Origin: Gammaproteobacteria bacterium
GTDB lineage: Bacteria; Pseudomonadota; Gammaproteobacteria; Pseudomonadales; Azotimanducaceae
DNA length: 64,000 nt
Direction: 5' to 3'
NCBI GenBank assembly: GCA_012960535.1
Contig: DUBB01000042.1
Location: forward strand, 14,735 to 78,734
Every line of letters begins with the position of its first letter. Position 1 is the first letter of the stretch. The translations under genes and the position numbers were made by a program. Shown piece by piece: positions 13,880 to 53,183 of the stretch. The notes under the pieces were generated by a model, which was not told where the DNA came from, searched no databases, and saw only the letters and a list, made by a program, of their open reading frames with translations.

Positions 13880-14740
13880 TCAGCTGACCGACTCCATATA
13901 AGACTCAATTCTCTCGAGATGCCCATCAACCCCAGTCTCTGCTGCATTATGGGTTGCTATGGCCATATGAGTGGCACCAATGGCCTGCCAGCGCTGATAA
14001 TGAGTCAACCATTTCTCTGGTGTGGCGCCGGCAAACTGAGCCTGTGCCTGGATACCAAAATCGCCCCAGTCTTTACCCTCCTTGGTCCACAATTCTTGTA
14101 GATAACTGACCGCATCCTGGGCAGCCTGGTTAGGGCCCATCAATGGCATCCAGCCATCGCCCATCCTGGCACAGCGCTCCAATACCCTGGGAGCCCCGCC
14201 GCCAAACCAGATCGGGATCGACCTGCCGGGTCTGGGGTTAATGCTGGCCATGGTGACCTGATGAAATTCCCCTGAGAAGCTCAAAGAATCACTGCTCCAG
14301 AGTTTTCGCAACAGTTCGACCTGCTCTTCCTGCCTTCTTCCCCTGGCCTTAAACGGGACGTTGAGGGCTTCATACTCAACCGCATTCCAGCCAGTACCCA
14401 CACCCAGGCGTAACCGATGATCAGACAATAATGCGATCTGAGCGGCTTGCTTTGCCACTAACGCAGTCTGCCTCTGTGGCAGTATCAGAACAGTGGTGAC
14501 CAGTTCAATTTTTTCTGTAATCCCGGCAATATAACTGAGCGTTGTCATCGGCTCATGAAATTCAGTATCTTTATCGTACACGCCTCGCCAGCCACCGGGT
14601 CGACCTGGATCAGCGCCCAGCACATGATCGTAAATCAACAGGTGATCTGCACCCAGGGCCTCAACGCCCTGGGCGTAGGCTTTCATGGCTCCGGCATCGG
14701 AGCCGATCTCGTTGTGGGGCAGTACGACACCGATTTTCAT
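13880..14740 (-). CDS. LLM-class flavin/F420-type oxidoreductase
   Basis: 286 residues, a luciferase-like (beta/alpha)8 monooxygenase. Typical segments: MKIGVVLPHNEIG, HLLIYDHVLG, ATLSYIAGIT-type strand (TTLSYIAGITEKIEL), LRLGVGTGWNAVEYEAL, and PIWFGGGAPRVLERCARMGDGWMP. Members of this actinobacterial-style group use F420H2, while proteobacterial ones mostly use FMNH2; cofactor and substrate are not readable here. Single gene unit. Confidence 0.8.
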   Translation of the reverse strand: MKIGVVLPHNEIGSDAGAMKAYAQGVEALGADHLLIYDHVLGADPGRPGGWRGVYDKDTEFHEPMTTLSYIAGITEKIELVTTVLILPQRQTALVAKQAAQIALLSDHRLRLGVGTGWNAVEYEALNVPFKARGRRQEEQVELLRKLWSSDSLSFSGEFHQVTMASINPRPGRSIPIWFGGGAPRVLERCARMGDGWMPLMGPNQAAQDAVSYLQELWTKEGKDWGDFGIQAQAQFAGATPEKWLTHYQRWQAIGATHMAIATHNAAETGVDGHLERIESYMESVS

Positions 14741-35584: not shown

Positions 35585-35724
35585 ATTAAAGTTCGCCACA
35601 GTAATGAAAGTAAGGGTGCCCTGAACAGATCACGCAAACCTTCTACCTCCAGAAAACGAGGCTGTGCCTGGTAATACCAGAAGGCATCTTGGGTTGATAA
35701 AAATGTTAACAATTGCATTTCCAA

Positions 35725-36081
35725 CTACATCGTTGCGGTCACTGTCTGGGATTTTTTCGAACCCGCCAGGTATTTCTCAATCTTGTCCTTGGCTTCATTA
35801 TCAGTGTCGATAAAGTTAACGCCTGAGCCCACTTTGTGAGGATTTTTTACGCCGTTTCTGGCAATCCAGACAATCTTTCCTGCCACCGGAATCCGCTCTG
35901 CTTCATCCATCAACTCAAGCAGAATAAATACCTCGTCGCCAAGCTCGTATTCCGTTAAACCTGCCAGGAACAGACCGCCATTTTTTAAAAAAGGCATATA
36001 ATACTGATACAACTGTGCGACATCCTTAATCGTAAGATTAACAAGATTTTTCTTAGCCGTATTTCGATTTAACTTAGGCAC
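35725..36081 (-). CDS. pilZ: PilZ-domain protein
   Basis: 118 residues. Matches the PilZ type of the tmk-holB-pilZ neighbourhood: LPFLKNGGLFLAG-type N-terminal strand (YYMPFLKNGGLFLAG), VFILLELMDEAERIPVAGKIVWI, GVGVNF-type end (KVGSGVNF). Canonical type IV pilus PilZ lacks the RxxxR c-di-GMP motif, and none is visible here. In Pseudomonas it is needed for pilus assembly. 47 bp downstream of holB; tatD, which often follows, is absent. Confidence 0.85.
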   Translation of the reverse strand: MPKLNRNTAKKNLVNLTIKDVAQLYQYYMPFLKNGGLFLAGLTEYELGDEVFILLELMDEAERIPVAGKIVWIARNGVKNPHKVGSGVNFIDTDNEAKDKIEKYLAGSKKSQTVTATM

Positions 36082-50313: not shown

Positions 50314-50449
50314 AAAAATGGCCTCAAAACCCAACAAACAAATGATAAAAGGGCGCTAATTCCAAGAACTAGTTCACAGCATTTGCTGGGGTGCGACAAA
50401 CCCATCTAAACACCGTTTCCTGCTCACCACCGCGGGTGCCACCGTCCAA

Positions 50450-50977
50450 TCAAATACCAGCCTCGACTGGTTGCTCTAGCAATGCCAGTATCTCCAGGAA
50501 TGCACCTTCCGCAATGGTTTTCATTTCTGCATCTGTCTTATTCTGTATTGGATGCGGCACAAAGGCCCTGAATGGACTGAATCCCAGGGACTGAGCCTGC
50601 TTATCCGCAGCTTCAACAAACTCTTCCGAGGCGATAAATGCGCCGGGAATACCCCTGCGATCAAGATCCAATATGTCATGCAGACTGCACGACGTACAGG
50701 ATCCTCAGTCAGCTAGGGCTTCAAGTACCAGGTCACACTCTGCGGCAATCTGTTGAGTCAACTCGACAGGTGCAACCCGAGTGAAGGTTGGTTTGCTGTA
50801 TCTAAGCGTCTTTGCGCCCTTTTGCTGAAGTAAATCCTCTATTCGATCGATGAAGATATTACCTCTTGGCTTTGCTATATCCAGTAAGCCAATGGTCTTA
50901 CCGAAAACAGAGTCCGGTCGCGCCTGGGGTATTCGTCCTTCTGGGTTCAGTTCAGAAGTTGGGTCCAGTAATCGCAT
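50450..50977 (-). CDS. UGSC-type selenoprotein, selenocysteine at codon 91 (in-frame TGA)
   Basis: Two adjacent frames join through a TGA (50707-50705) into one 175-residue chain: ...EALAD-U91-GSCTSCSLHDIL.... Both sides are continuous, protein-like and same-frame, and U-G-S-C-T-S-C gives a selenocysteine beside two cysteines, as I recall for the UGSC (seleno)protein family related to reductase selenoproteins. Right after the TGA a hairpin GTCGTGCA-GUC-TGCATGAC (50693-50675) has its loop G at the 20th base from TGA, fitting bacterial SECIS rules. Start at ATG 50977, with AAAGGAGGT just before it; an upstream GTG is rejected. Partner gene immediately upstream. Function unknown, likely redox. 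Confidence 0.8.
50675..50693 (-). promoter_or_regulatory. Candidate bacterial SECIS element
   Basis: Eight pairs (one G-U) around a 3-nt loop beginning with G: GTCGTGCA / TGCATGAC. The loop lies 19 bases past the TGA, within the 16-37 nt window known for bSECIS. An outer GATCC/GGATC pairing (50702-50698 and 50671-50667) could extend it. Confidence 0.7.
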
Positions 50978-51006
50978 AACACCTCCTTTATTATTGTCCA
51001 GTTCAG

Positions 51007-52422
51007 TCACACTATAATCCTTTTTGTCACCGGTATACTACCCATCGGGCCACTGGCAACCCAGCCAGCTATGATTGCTGAAAACATACCAGCTGATCCG
51101 CCGGCTCGAACAATGGATAGCCCGCCTTCCCTGAACTTTGGCATAACCTTTTCCGCAAAGGATTGCGGCAGCCCTTCGGTAATTCCTGCCGCACCGGCCA
51201 CCAATTCAGAGCCGGGAATCATCAGCAATTCCGTTAGGCGGTCTTTTAAGTCCTGTTTGCTCCAGCCAGCTTCCCTATAAACCCGTTCATGTTCAGGTGA
51301 AACCACCAGAAAAACATCCGAAGACATCACAAATTTCGGATGGGCAACAACCCTCAATGCGGCTGCAAAAGAGCGACATAGCGAATCCGGGTCCCTGGAT
51401 TTCTGATCGACAATACCCTGCACACCATCTGCAGCAAACAGTGTGACCGTGGAATCCTCAGCAGCGAACCCCTTTTCCACAGCAAGTGATTCCCAGCAGG
51501 AACCTAATTCATCTTCAGCAAAACAAAAAGTATACTTACCTGGATTGCCCAAAGCAGAACGGTCCACCTGCTGCGGCTTACCACCACCAATATTACGGAT
51601 AACAAGCTGTAGAGCCCTACCAATGGTGGCATTTGCCCTGTTTCCCTGTCCTAGCGCATTACCTTTAGCGTTCATGCCTATAGCTCGAGAAAGTGGTCCG
51701 TTAACAACGATCATGGGACCAGAAAAGTAGGTAGTTGCAAGTAAGCCGTGCATGCAGAATTCATCTTCCAGAACAGCTTCTACGCTAGCAATGACGACCG
51801 GCAGGTATTCGGGCCTGCAGCCTGCCAGAACCGCATTTAGGGCTATTTTTTCGATAGTACAACGACCGTAATCAGGCGGAACATCACCGATATACTCCTG
51901 TGGATCCCGATGCGTACCTGCCAGCATACGCATCACGCGGACCTGGGTTGGCGGGACTACCGGCAAACCATCAGACCAGTCCTGGTCGAAGCAAGCCTCG
52001 ATATCATCGTCCGCGTCAAATTCCAGACGTCTTGATTTGAGATTAGCTGCATCAAATCTTGCAGCTAATTTTTCAGGCATTCCGGGGTCCAAGGTTCTGG
52101 ATCCACAACCCGGTCGAAACAAAGGCAATTCCGCAGCAAATTGGAAGCCTGCTATTTTTTGCCATTGTTCTTTATCCCAACCGTAGATTCGATTTACTTC
52201 CCCCTGCGCATCTTTTTCAATCAGGGTCGGAACGATTTCAATTTCAGCCCTGTAACTAAGTTCCAGGCTTTCATCATAAATGACAGGGAATCCCGGGGGG
52301 AATTGCGGGTTATCCTGGCTCACCAGCTCAATATCCAATTGATCGAAAAGTTCCGCCAGTAGCGGCTCAATTAGCTTACAGGTCTCACAGGATTCCTTTA
52401 CATATAACTGAAATTTGCTCAT
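51007..52422 (-). CDS. Thioredoxin-like protein with large C-terminal domain, UGSC partner
   Basis: 471 residues. The N-terminal 85 residues form a thioredoxin/glutaredoxin-like unit with ESCETC (C12, C15) and RAEIEIVPTLIEKD (cis-Pro position). The remaining part is a domain I do not recognise, with LPVVPPTQVRVMRMLAGTH and repeated glycine motifs (NIGGGKPQQVD, GGSAGMFSAIIAGW). It overlaps kdsB by 4 bp and ends 30 bp before the selenoprotein, so they are surely co-transcribed and may form a redox pair. Function unknown. Confidence 0.7.
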   Translation of the reverse strand: MSKFQLYVKESCETCKLIEPLLAELFDQLDIELVSQDNPQFPPGFPVIYDESLELSYRAEIEIVPTLIEKDAQGEVNRIYGWDKEQWQKIAGFQFAAELPLFRPGCGSRTLDPGMPEKLAARFDAANLKSRRLEFDADDDIEACFDQDWSDGLPVVPPTQVRVMRMLAGTHRDPQEYIGDVPPDYGRCTIEKIALNAVLAGCRPEYLPVVIASVEAVLEDEFCMHGLLATTYFSGPMIVVNGPLSRAIGMNAKGNALGQGNRANATIGRALQLVIRNIGGGKPQQVDRSALGNPGKYTFCFAEDELGSCWESLAVEKGFAAEDSTVTLFAADGVQGIVDQKSRDPDSLCRSFAAALRVVAHPKFVMSSDVFLVVSPEHERVYREAGWSKQDLKDRLTELLMIPGSELVAGAAGITEGLPQSFAEKVMPKFREGGLSIVRAGGSAGMFSAIIAGWVASGPMGSIPVTKRIIV

Positions 52423-53183
52423 TTACCGTCCTTTTTCGCTAGGATTTGTCTGACCTTGCACAGATCATCGGCTGTATCAATACCAGGTGGGATAAGCACA
52501 TCGGCAACACAAGCCATGATCCGTGCGCCATGATACAAGGCTCTTAACTGCTCTAATTTTTCGGTTTGTTCCAGGTGGCAAGCGCCCCAGCTAACAAATT
52601 CTCTTAAAAACCCAGCTGAATACGCATAAATACCTACGTGTCGATAGCACTCTGCTAATGCAGCAACCTCACCGCGTCTGGCTGGGGCTGACCGTTCAAA
52701 AGGGATGCTCGCGCGACTGAAGTATAAGGCCTCTTGACGCTGGTTCCTGACTACCTTAACGACATTGGGCTCATGCCAGTGCGCCTGTTCCGTTAGCGGC
52801 TGGCACAGCGTTGCCATATCACATGAAGACTGCTGTAGATCTTTTGCAACTTGATCGATACAGACTGGCGGAATCAAGGGTTCGTCGCCCTGAACATTGA
52901 CGATAGTGGTATCTGCAGGAATCTGGAGAATATCACAGGCTTCAGCTAAGCGATCAGTACCCGATATATGATGACTGCCCGTCATGACCACTTCACCGCC
53001 AAAACCGATAACACTATCAAAAATGGCTTGATCATCGGTGGCGACCACCGTGCGACTGGCATTGCTCAGCCGCGTTTGTTCAAATACCCGCTGGATCATG
53101 GGTTTACCATGAATATCTGCAAGCGGTTTACCAGGAAGTCTCTGGCTACCCATTCTAGCCGGGATCAGCACAGTGTATGACAT
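52419..53183 (-). CDS. kdsB: CMP-KDO synthetase
   Basis: 254 residues. IPARMGSQRLPGKPLADIHGKPMIQ is the nucleotide-binding start; VVATDDQAI, NVQGDEPLIP and RHVGIYAYSAGFL follow. Activates KDO with CTP for LPS inner core. Adjacent to the trm112-like gene as in relatives. Confidence 0.95.
   Translation of the reverse strand: MSYTVLIPARMGSQRLPGKPLADIHGKPMIQRVFEQTRLSNASRTVVATDDQAIFDSVIGFGGEVVMTGSHHISGTDRLAEACDILQIPADTTIVNVQGDEPLIPPVCIDQVAKDLQQSSCDMATLCQPLTEQAHWHEPNVVKVVRNQRQEALYFSRASIPFERSAPARRGEVAALAECYRHVGIYAYSAGFLREFVSWGACHLEQTEKLEQLRALYHGARIMACVADVLIPPGIDTADDLCKVRQILAKKDGK

Follow-up and report, generated by a model that had tools for sequence, protein, structure and literature searches.

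The locus described here raises a plain question: is the TGA triplet that lies within a minus-strand reading frame of an Azotimanducaceae contig a stop codon, or is it read as selenocysteine (Sec)? The window, a stretch of DNA of 64,000 nucleotides, corresponds to positions 14735–78734 of contig C42 in a genome (G000) of 4.24 Mb and 53 contigs. A preliminary description had proposed that two coding segments in one frame are united only if this TGA is read through, and its coordinates and terminal stop are borne out: the frame opens with an ATG at 50977, meets the TGA at 50707–50705 and ends with a second TGA at 50452–50450. The strong ribosome binding site said to precede the ATG is present as AGGAGG (50987–50982). 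Translation through the first TGA gives a protein of 175 residues that carries U-G-S-C-T-S-C across the joint, as had been predicted, with Sec at residue 91. Judging from the sequence, we consider it about 95% probable that this UGA is read as Sec and that the gene product is a selenoprotein of the UGSC family. A scan of the whole window for frames joined at a TGA (at least 50 residues before it and at least 40 after, less than half covered by retained open reading frames (ORFs) of at least 120 residues) gave three, the UGSC gene among them; the other two, at 35675–35998 and 50373–50753 on the plus strand, look like chance.

The assignment to the UGSC family, also made in the preliminary description, was upheld by both profile models. 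The whole protein scores 139.7 bits (E = 1.4e-40) against PF24696, whose cut-off is 25, and 145.9 bits against NF041046, ‘UGSC family (seleno)protein’, whose cut-off is 125. The two halves fall on consecutive profile positions, 2–92 and 94–171 of PF24696 (each above the cut-off) and 2–68 and 70–146 of NF041046 (53.7 and 71 bits, each below the cut-off of 125). The x-G-S-C motif is present as U-G-S-C at residues 91–94, and with the family the protein shares the U/C-G-S-C motif, the exchange of Sec and cysteine (Cys) and scores above both curated cut-offs; nothing basic sets it apart, and the window protein is a member. In an alignment of 33 UGSC rows, which like the 37-row alignment of the partner described below was chosen from 60 loci, the invariant columns are 91 (Sec or Cys), Cys94, Gly109 and Phe120. 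The longer pattern UxxCxxC, which includes Cys97, is carried by the near UGSC set, and distant copies lack Cys97. The same genome holds a second UGSC gene (G000:C35:58172–58639; locus L081, 1522–1962 on the plus strand, also seen as L070), with one TGA and the motif UGSCTTG.

The codon aligned to the TGA was read in 41 UGSC relatives (L022–L062) from a scan of genome contigs. Thirteen loci (L022–L034, at 57 to 99% identity) have TGA there, the remaining 28 (L035–L062) have TGC or TGT, and no other codon was seen, so that homologues with neither Sec nor Cys at this position, which the preliminary description had named as evidence against its reading, were not found at any of the 41 loci. Judged by codon position, purifying selection acts on both sides of the TGA: locus L024 differs from the window at 13, 3 and 42 first, second and third positions before the TGA and at 8, 1 and 32 after it, and L025, L029 and L030 show a similar, but weaker, pattern.

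A genome without sel genes had been named as the other result that would speak against a selenoprotein. Here selA, selB, selD and the gene for tRNA-Sec all lie on the window's own contig (Table 1). The ORF of 742 residues that contains selD looks like an Ndh-SelD fusion, a name taken from a 2008 ocean survey (PMC2398784). At the site where Rfam places tRNA-Sec (L001, 1499–1596, minus strand), ARAGORN reports a tRNA-Lys(ctt). SelA above the cut-off was found in all 13 genomes with TGA loci, compared with 9 of the 28 with Cys loci (Fisher p = 3e-5, not corrected for relatedness). Among five further genomes, SelA passed the cut-off in G314, G091 and G332 and was absent at that cut-off from G135 and G337. 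The selB search among relatives covered 10 genomes.

The UGSC gene also ends at a TGA and, therefore, a local signal must distinguish the two; we infer that this signal is the hairpin downstream of the first. The stem-loop with a G-first loop that had been placed 19 nucleotides past the UGA is indeed there: an apical stem of columns 15–22 paired with 26–33 (numbered from the T of TGA) closes a GUC loop, with 19 nucleotides from the UGA to the loop G. In bacterial selenocysteine insertion sequence (SECIS) elements the loop usually lies about 16–37 nucleotides from the UGA, and the hairpin is SECIS-like both in standing just past the UGA and in the G of its apical loop. It exceeds chance. The folding energy of the 51 nucleotides that begin with the TGA is −22.2 kcal/mol, whereas shuffled versions average −11.7 (z = −3.9; none of 200 equally stable). 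Wider stretches of 63 and 99 nucleotides give z = −3.5 (0 of 200) and −3.2 (1 of 200), and when 48 nucleotides were recoded synonymously 3000 times, no version matched the native fold energy.

Conservation of the hairpin was assessed in a TGA alignment of 12 sequences, 10 of them distinct, comprising the window, nine of the 13 TGA genome loci, L064 and L069. This alignment omits L022, L023, L027 and L028, which nearly duplicate the window or L025, as well as thirteen distant TGA loci (L065–L067 and L070–L079) because their hairpins are different; the comparison of distant hairpins showed 15 of 16 loci, L078 having been missed by the motif pattern. The 10 distinct rows keep a mean of 7.6 of the eight apical pairs, whereas the synonymous null gives 4.84 (0 of 2000). 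At seven third codon positions (columns 15, 18, 21, 24, 27, 30 and 33) 9 or 10 of the 10 rows share one letter, columns 6, 9 and 36–48 vary, and the lower-stem pairs of the full hairpin are mostly lost in relatives. The seven positions are freer in the Cys alignment (25 of the 28 loci, L060–L062 being omitted; 24 distinct rows), where columns 15, 18, 24 and 27 are widely variable, 30 and 33 show a two-letter split and 21 is near-constant. Compensatory changes occur in two apical pairs (G-C to A-U in L034, C-G to G-C in L064).

Several results weigh against the reading of UGA as Sec under a hairpin's direction. The third positions of columns 24 and 27 do not offer a pure comparison, because the TGA and Cys sets differ there in amino acid. 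Covariation is weak, with one whole-structure measure beating every shuffle and the other four reached by 27–49 of 500. The Cys set is likewise above its own synonymous null (5.33 vs 4.38 pairs; 0 of 2000) and beats nearly all shuffles in two measures, which 1 and 4 of 500 reach. This hairpin shape is missing from distant TGA copies, among them the second UGSC gene of the window's genome. To these must be added the presence of SelA in the nine Cys-locus genomes, and genome G135, which has a TGA-type UGSC gene on a 3.1 kb contig and neither SelA nor SelB above the cut-off, an exception that a stray contig or an assembly gap could explain.

Other accounts of the TGA fare far worse. It is one base away from TGC and TGT and could, in principle, be a sequencing error or the mark of a decaying gene; however, the same codon is TGA on 13 contigs from 13 genomes (some near-copies, identity down to 57%), the hairpin is constrained and purifying selection continues past the TGA, and on these grounds we rejected error and decay, which we regard as having next to no chance of being right. 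A reassigned code, with TGA standing for an ordinary amino acid, was rejected with the same firmness: we found no point in its support, the UGSC gene itself terminates at TGA, the genome has SelA, SelB, SelD and tRNA-Sec, and Cys is the alternative in all 28 loci without TGA. The UGA might instead act as a selenium-dependent switch, yielding a 90-residue product at low selenium and the full protein at high selenium, both of them functional. The N-terminal half does have its own start and ribosome site, but three of the four invariant columns (Cys94, Gly109 and Phe120) lie past position 91, and a plain Cys takes the place of Sec at 28 of the 41 loci, which makes a switch very improbable.

Directly upstream of the UGSC gene lies the gene of a 471-residue protein, hereafter the partner, and we are highly confident that the locus encodes a UGSC selenoprotein together with a functional partner. 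A partner relative adjoins UGSC in all 41 loci of the contig scan, and at each of the 19 whole-genome loci one is beside or fused to UGSC (two places are represented twice among the 19), which makes 60 of 60 loci tested. At E 0.001, the UGSC model and the profile of the partner have hits in the same six of 369 genomes of the class; two of these six UGSC genomes pass the curated cut-off. As in thioredoxin domain proteins, the first 95 residues of the partner form a thioredoxin domain with a CxxC motif, whereas the remainder belongs to no named family. With the whole protein as query, neither Pfam nor NCBIfam gave a match at E 0.001, and a Glrx-like match was weak (E = 0.08). Its 22 invariant columns, among 37 rows, all fall within residues 151–318. 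The gene at 52419–53183 on the minus strand of the window, which from its sequence we take to be KdsB-like, overlaps the partner's start by 4 bases and is present in seven relatives of the locus.

Several UGSC-partner forms do without the thioredoxin domain, which weighs against the function proposed below. The partner of the genome's second UGSC gene, which lies downstream (L081, 1974–3044, plus strand), is one of these. Genome G332 (3.5 Mb) has at least 10 UGSC copies (L103–L111), each with one TGA, in frames of 549–649 residues that include the partner domain; judged by eye, L103, L104, L106 and L108 have signal-peptide-like N-termini. The searches across the class scored a capped number of candidates per genome, 10 and 4 in G332, and the copy numbers there are therefore minimum values. 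In L110 (G332:C2:139000–157000) selB and selA flank a fusion of UGSC and partner, and a TrxB-like gene stands beyond selB. Some of the fused copies are near pyrroloquinoline quinone (PQQ) dehydrogenases, rhodanese and TlpA-like genes. The 2008 survey reported fusions of UGSC to a conserved domain without known function, ‘UGSC/Unknown_1’ (PMC2398784). That arrangement resembles the G332 fusions in joining UGSC to a conserved domain and differs from the window, where the partner has a gene of its own and a thioredoxin domain in addition; Unknown_1 may be the partner domain.

Table 1. Coordinates of the predicted UGSC gene, its partner, the selenium machinery and the PrdB/GrdB-like genes. Plain numbers are window positions; C-numbers are contigs of genome G000.
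Feature	Position	Strand	Remarks
UGSC-family selenoprotein gene (predicted)	50450..50977	−	175 residues; Sec91; PF24696 and NF041046 matches; relatives at 41 loci
In-frame UGA, probably read as Sec	50705..50707	−	alignment to TGA/TGC/TGT; sel machinery in genome
AGGAGG ribosome binding site	50982..50987	−	sequence
Apical stem-loop, SECIS-like	50675..50693	−	8 bp; loop GUC; loop G at 50685; shuffles, pair conservation
Full hairpin including lower stem	50663..50705	−	fold; pair counts
Partner gene	51007..52422	−	471 residues; directly upstream of UGSC gene
Partner thioredoxin-like domain	52138..52422	−	residues 1–95; CxxC at Cys12 and Cys15
Partner conserved domain without named family	51010..52044	−	residues 127–471, about 345 residues
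selA	C42:94701-96038		569.7 bits, above curated cut-off
selB	C42:96077-97936		425.8 bits, above curated cut-off
selD	C42:133749-134645		255.3 bits, above curated cut-off; inside 742-residue ORF
tRNA-Sec (selC)	C42:133371-133459		49.8 bits (Rfam gathering score 47); UCA anticodon from alignment
PrdB/GrdB-like gene	G000:C10:93443		L082
PrdB/GrdB-like gene	G000:C43:2637		L085
PrdB/GrdB-like gene	G000:C31:61855		L086
PrdB/GrdB-like gene	G000:C31:24784		L119
PrdB/GrdB-like gene	G000:C8:121552		L138

The structure model of UGSC, built from the 33 rows, has a mean predicted local distance difference test (pLDDT) score of 90.8 and shows five strands in alternation with helices. Sec91 falls between the third strand (83–89) and helix 92–107, and Cys94 follows three residues later. 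Many of the structural matches shown have flavodoxin-like folds (receiver, B12-binding and TIR), Foldseek's own matches being weak. From the model and profile comparison, UGSC is probably a small flavodoxin-like alpha/beta domain with a distant relationship to PrdB/GrdB, selenium enzymes of proline and glycine breakdown. The 2008 survey had guessed a ‘Trx-like’ fold (PMC2398784); on that account UGSC would be a thioredoxin-fold oxidoreductase, its likeness to PrdB/GrdB confined to a UxxC motif after a strand. Such a motif is indeed of the redox type, and we nevertheless hold the thioredoxin fold to be unlikely.

The relationship to PrdB/GrdB emerged from profile alignment. Against 31 PrdB-like rows (the distinct rows of 33 loci), hhalign gave UGSC a probability of 90% with E = 1.7e-6 over 93 columns and a score of 48.2, compared with a maximum of 19.9 in 100 column shuffles, 14.8 for the reversed profile and a probability of 2.3% for the partner's thioredoxin domain. 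The best of 15 other neighbourhood ORF clusters reached a score of 26.1 and a probability of 3.2 (of the 16 clusters compared, one was UGSC itself and was not counted, and the other 15 probably include antisense ORFs). The Sec columns of the UGSC and PrdB-like rows coincide. On the other side of the balance, the first hhalign comparison, with eight PrdB-like rows, reached 56% and a score of 36.7 (maximum of 28.4 in 200 column shuffles), falling to 21% and 30.6 with the Cys columns masked, and the link is a profile comparison whose hhalign value holds for one pair and is not calibrated against a database. No match of UGSC to PF07355 was listed at E up to 10, a range in which HMMER's filters discard most hits with E beyond about 0.1, and the cut-off of 22 bits for GRDB (PF07355, which covers glycine/sarcosine/betaine reductase B and PrdB) was not reached; the link is thus one of kinship to the GRDB group without membership. 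Taken at the level of sequence profiles, distant common descent of UGSC and the PrdB/GrdB-like proteins is likely.

Both groups place Sec after a strand, followed by xxC and a helix and then a GIPTV-type strand; the PrdB/GrdB-like proteins, relatives of PF07355, differ in being longer and in having U-P-x-x-H-Q or U-P-x-C-T at the Sec. Our search for them covered 40 genomes, namely 36 of the 46 in the SelA-scored set together with G000, G405, G638 and G641. The window's own genome has five, each with one in-frame TGA, which with the two UGSC genes makes at least seven candidate selenoproteins. Three of the five (L082, L085 and L086) have the U-P-x-x-H-Q motif and match PF07355 above the cut-off. 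In these three the PF07355 match ends before the Sec codon (in P0002, profile position 346 of 347 falls at residue 178, with Sec at 180), as would happen with a model derived from ORFs truncated at UGA. A second PrdB-like group (L131–L137) has the motif U-P-x-C-T-x-A-V-S and one TGA; its members are near selA in G675, G656, G659 and G661, and five of the seven loci are in genomes with a Cys-type UGSC.

The UGA at 50707–50705 is very probably decoded as Sec by SelA, SelB, SelD and tRNA-Sec, presumably under the direction of the downstream hairpin. What UGSC and its partner might do together can be proposed as follows. Sec91 would attack a substrate or become oxidised, Cys94 would resolve the oxidised Sec91 as a Se-S bond, and the partner would reduce that bond through the CxxC of its thioredoxin domain. 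Electrons would be delivered by a TrxB-type flavoprotein and pass from TrxB to the thioredoxin domain, to UGSC and to the substrate, which the C-terminal domain of the partner would hold or prepare. UGSC would thus be a thioredoxin-fed selenol reductase acting like glycine/proline reductase, a function we put forward tentatively. With the same reserve, UGSC and the partner could be seen as a two-component aerobic counterpart of glycine/proline reductase, made up of a minimal Sec domain descended from PrdB/GrdB, a constant catalytic or substrate-binding domain and a built-in thioredoxin.

Pyridine nucleotide-disulphide oxidoreductases (Pfam Pyr_redox_2) lie within three genes of UGSC or the partner in L050 and L059 and in the G332 loci L109 and L110; the scan covered these four loci, and the name TrxB-like was given to the Pyr_redox_2 genes by eye. 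Five loci with a Cys-type UGSC and partner (L036, L040, L046, L051 and L054) have a BKACE gene nearby, as well as a 3-hydroxyacyl-CoA dehydrogenase, a permease and an AraC regulator (Pfam on representatives), a set that is suggestive of carnitine breakdown.

The UGSC family itself is already known and has been in print since at least 2008, when it was among the commonest selenoprotein families of the ocean survey (255 sequences, Table 2 of PMC2398784); passages on it in two later reviews list it without a function (PMC13188914, PMC9312934). The passages on UGSC in these three papers mention no partner gene beyond the fusion and state no relation to PrdB, and they treat UGSC and PrdB as distinct wherever the two appear together. 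Relative to the preliminary description, the upstream partner gene, the second UGSC gene and the PrdB/GrdB-like relation are additions, and it is the partner gene and the probable descent from PrdB/GrdB that give the locus its interest. A constant partner, a fold prediction that corrects the earlier guess and a plausible line of descent offer a direct route to testing UGSC function. If the proposed function is true, UGSC and its partner would represent a widespread class of selenium enzymes, inside and outside the cytoplasm, because they have been multiplied in some bacteria, as in the at least 10 fused copies of G332, several with signal-peptide-like starts.
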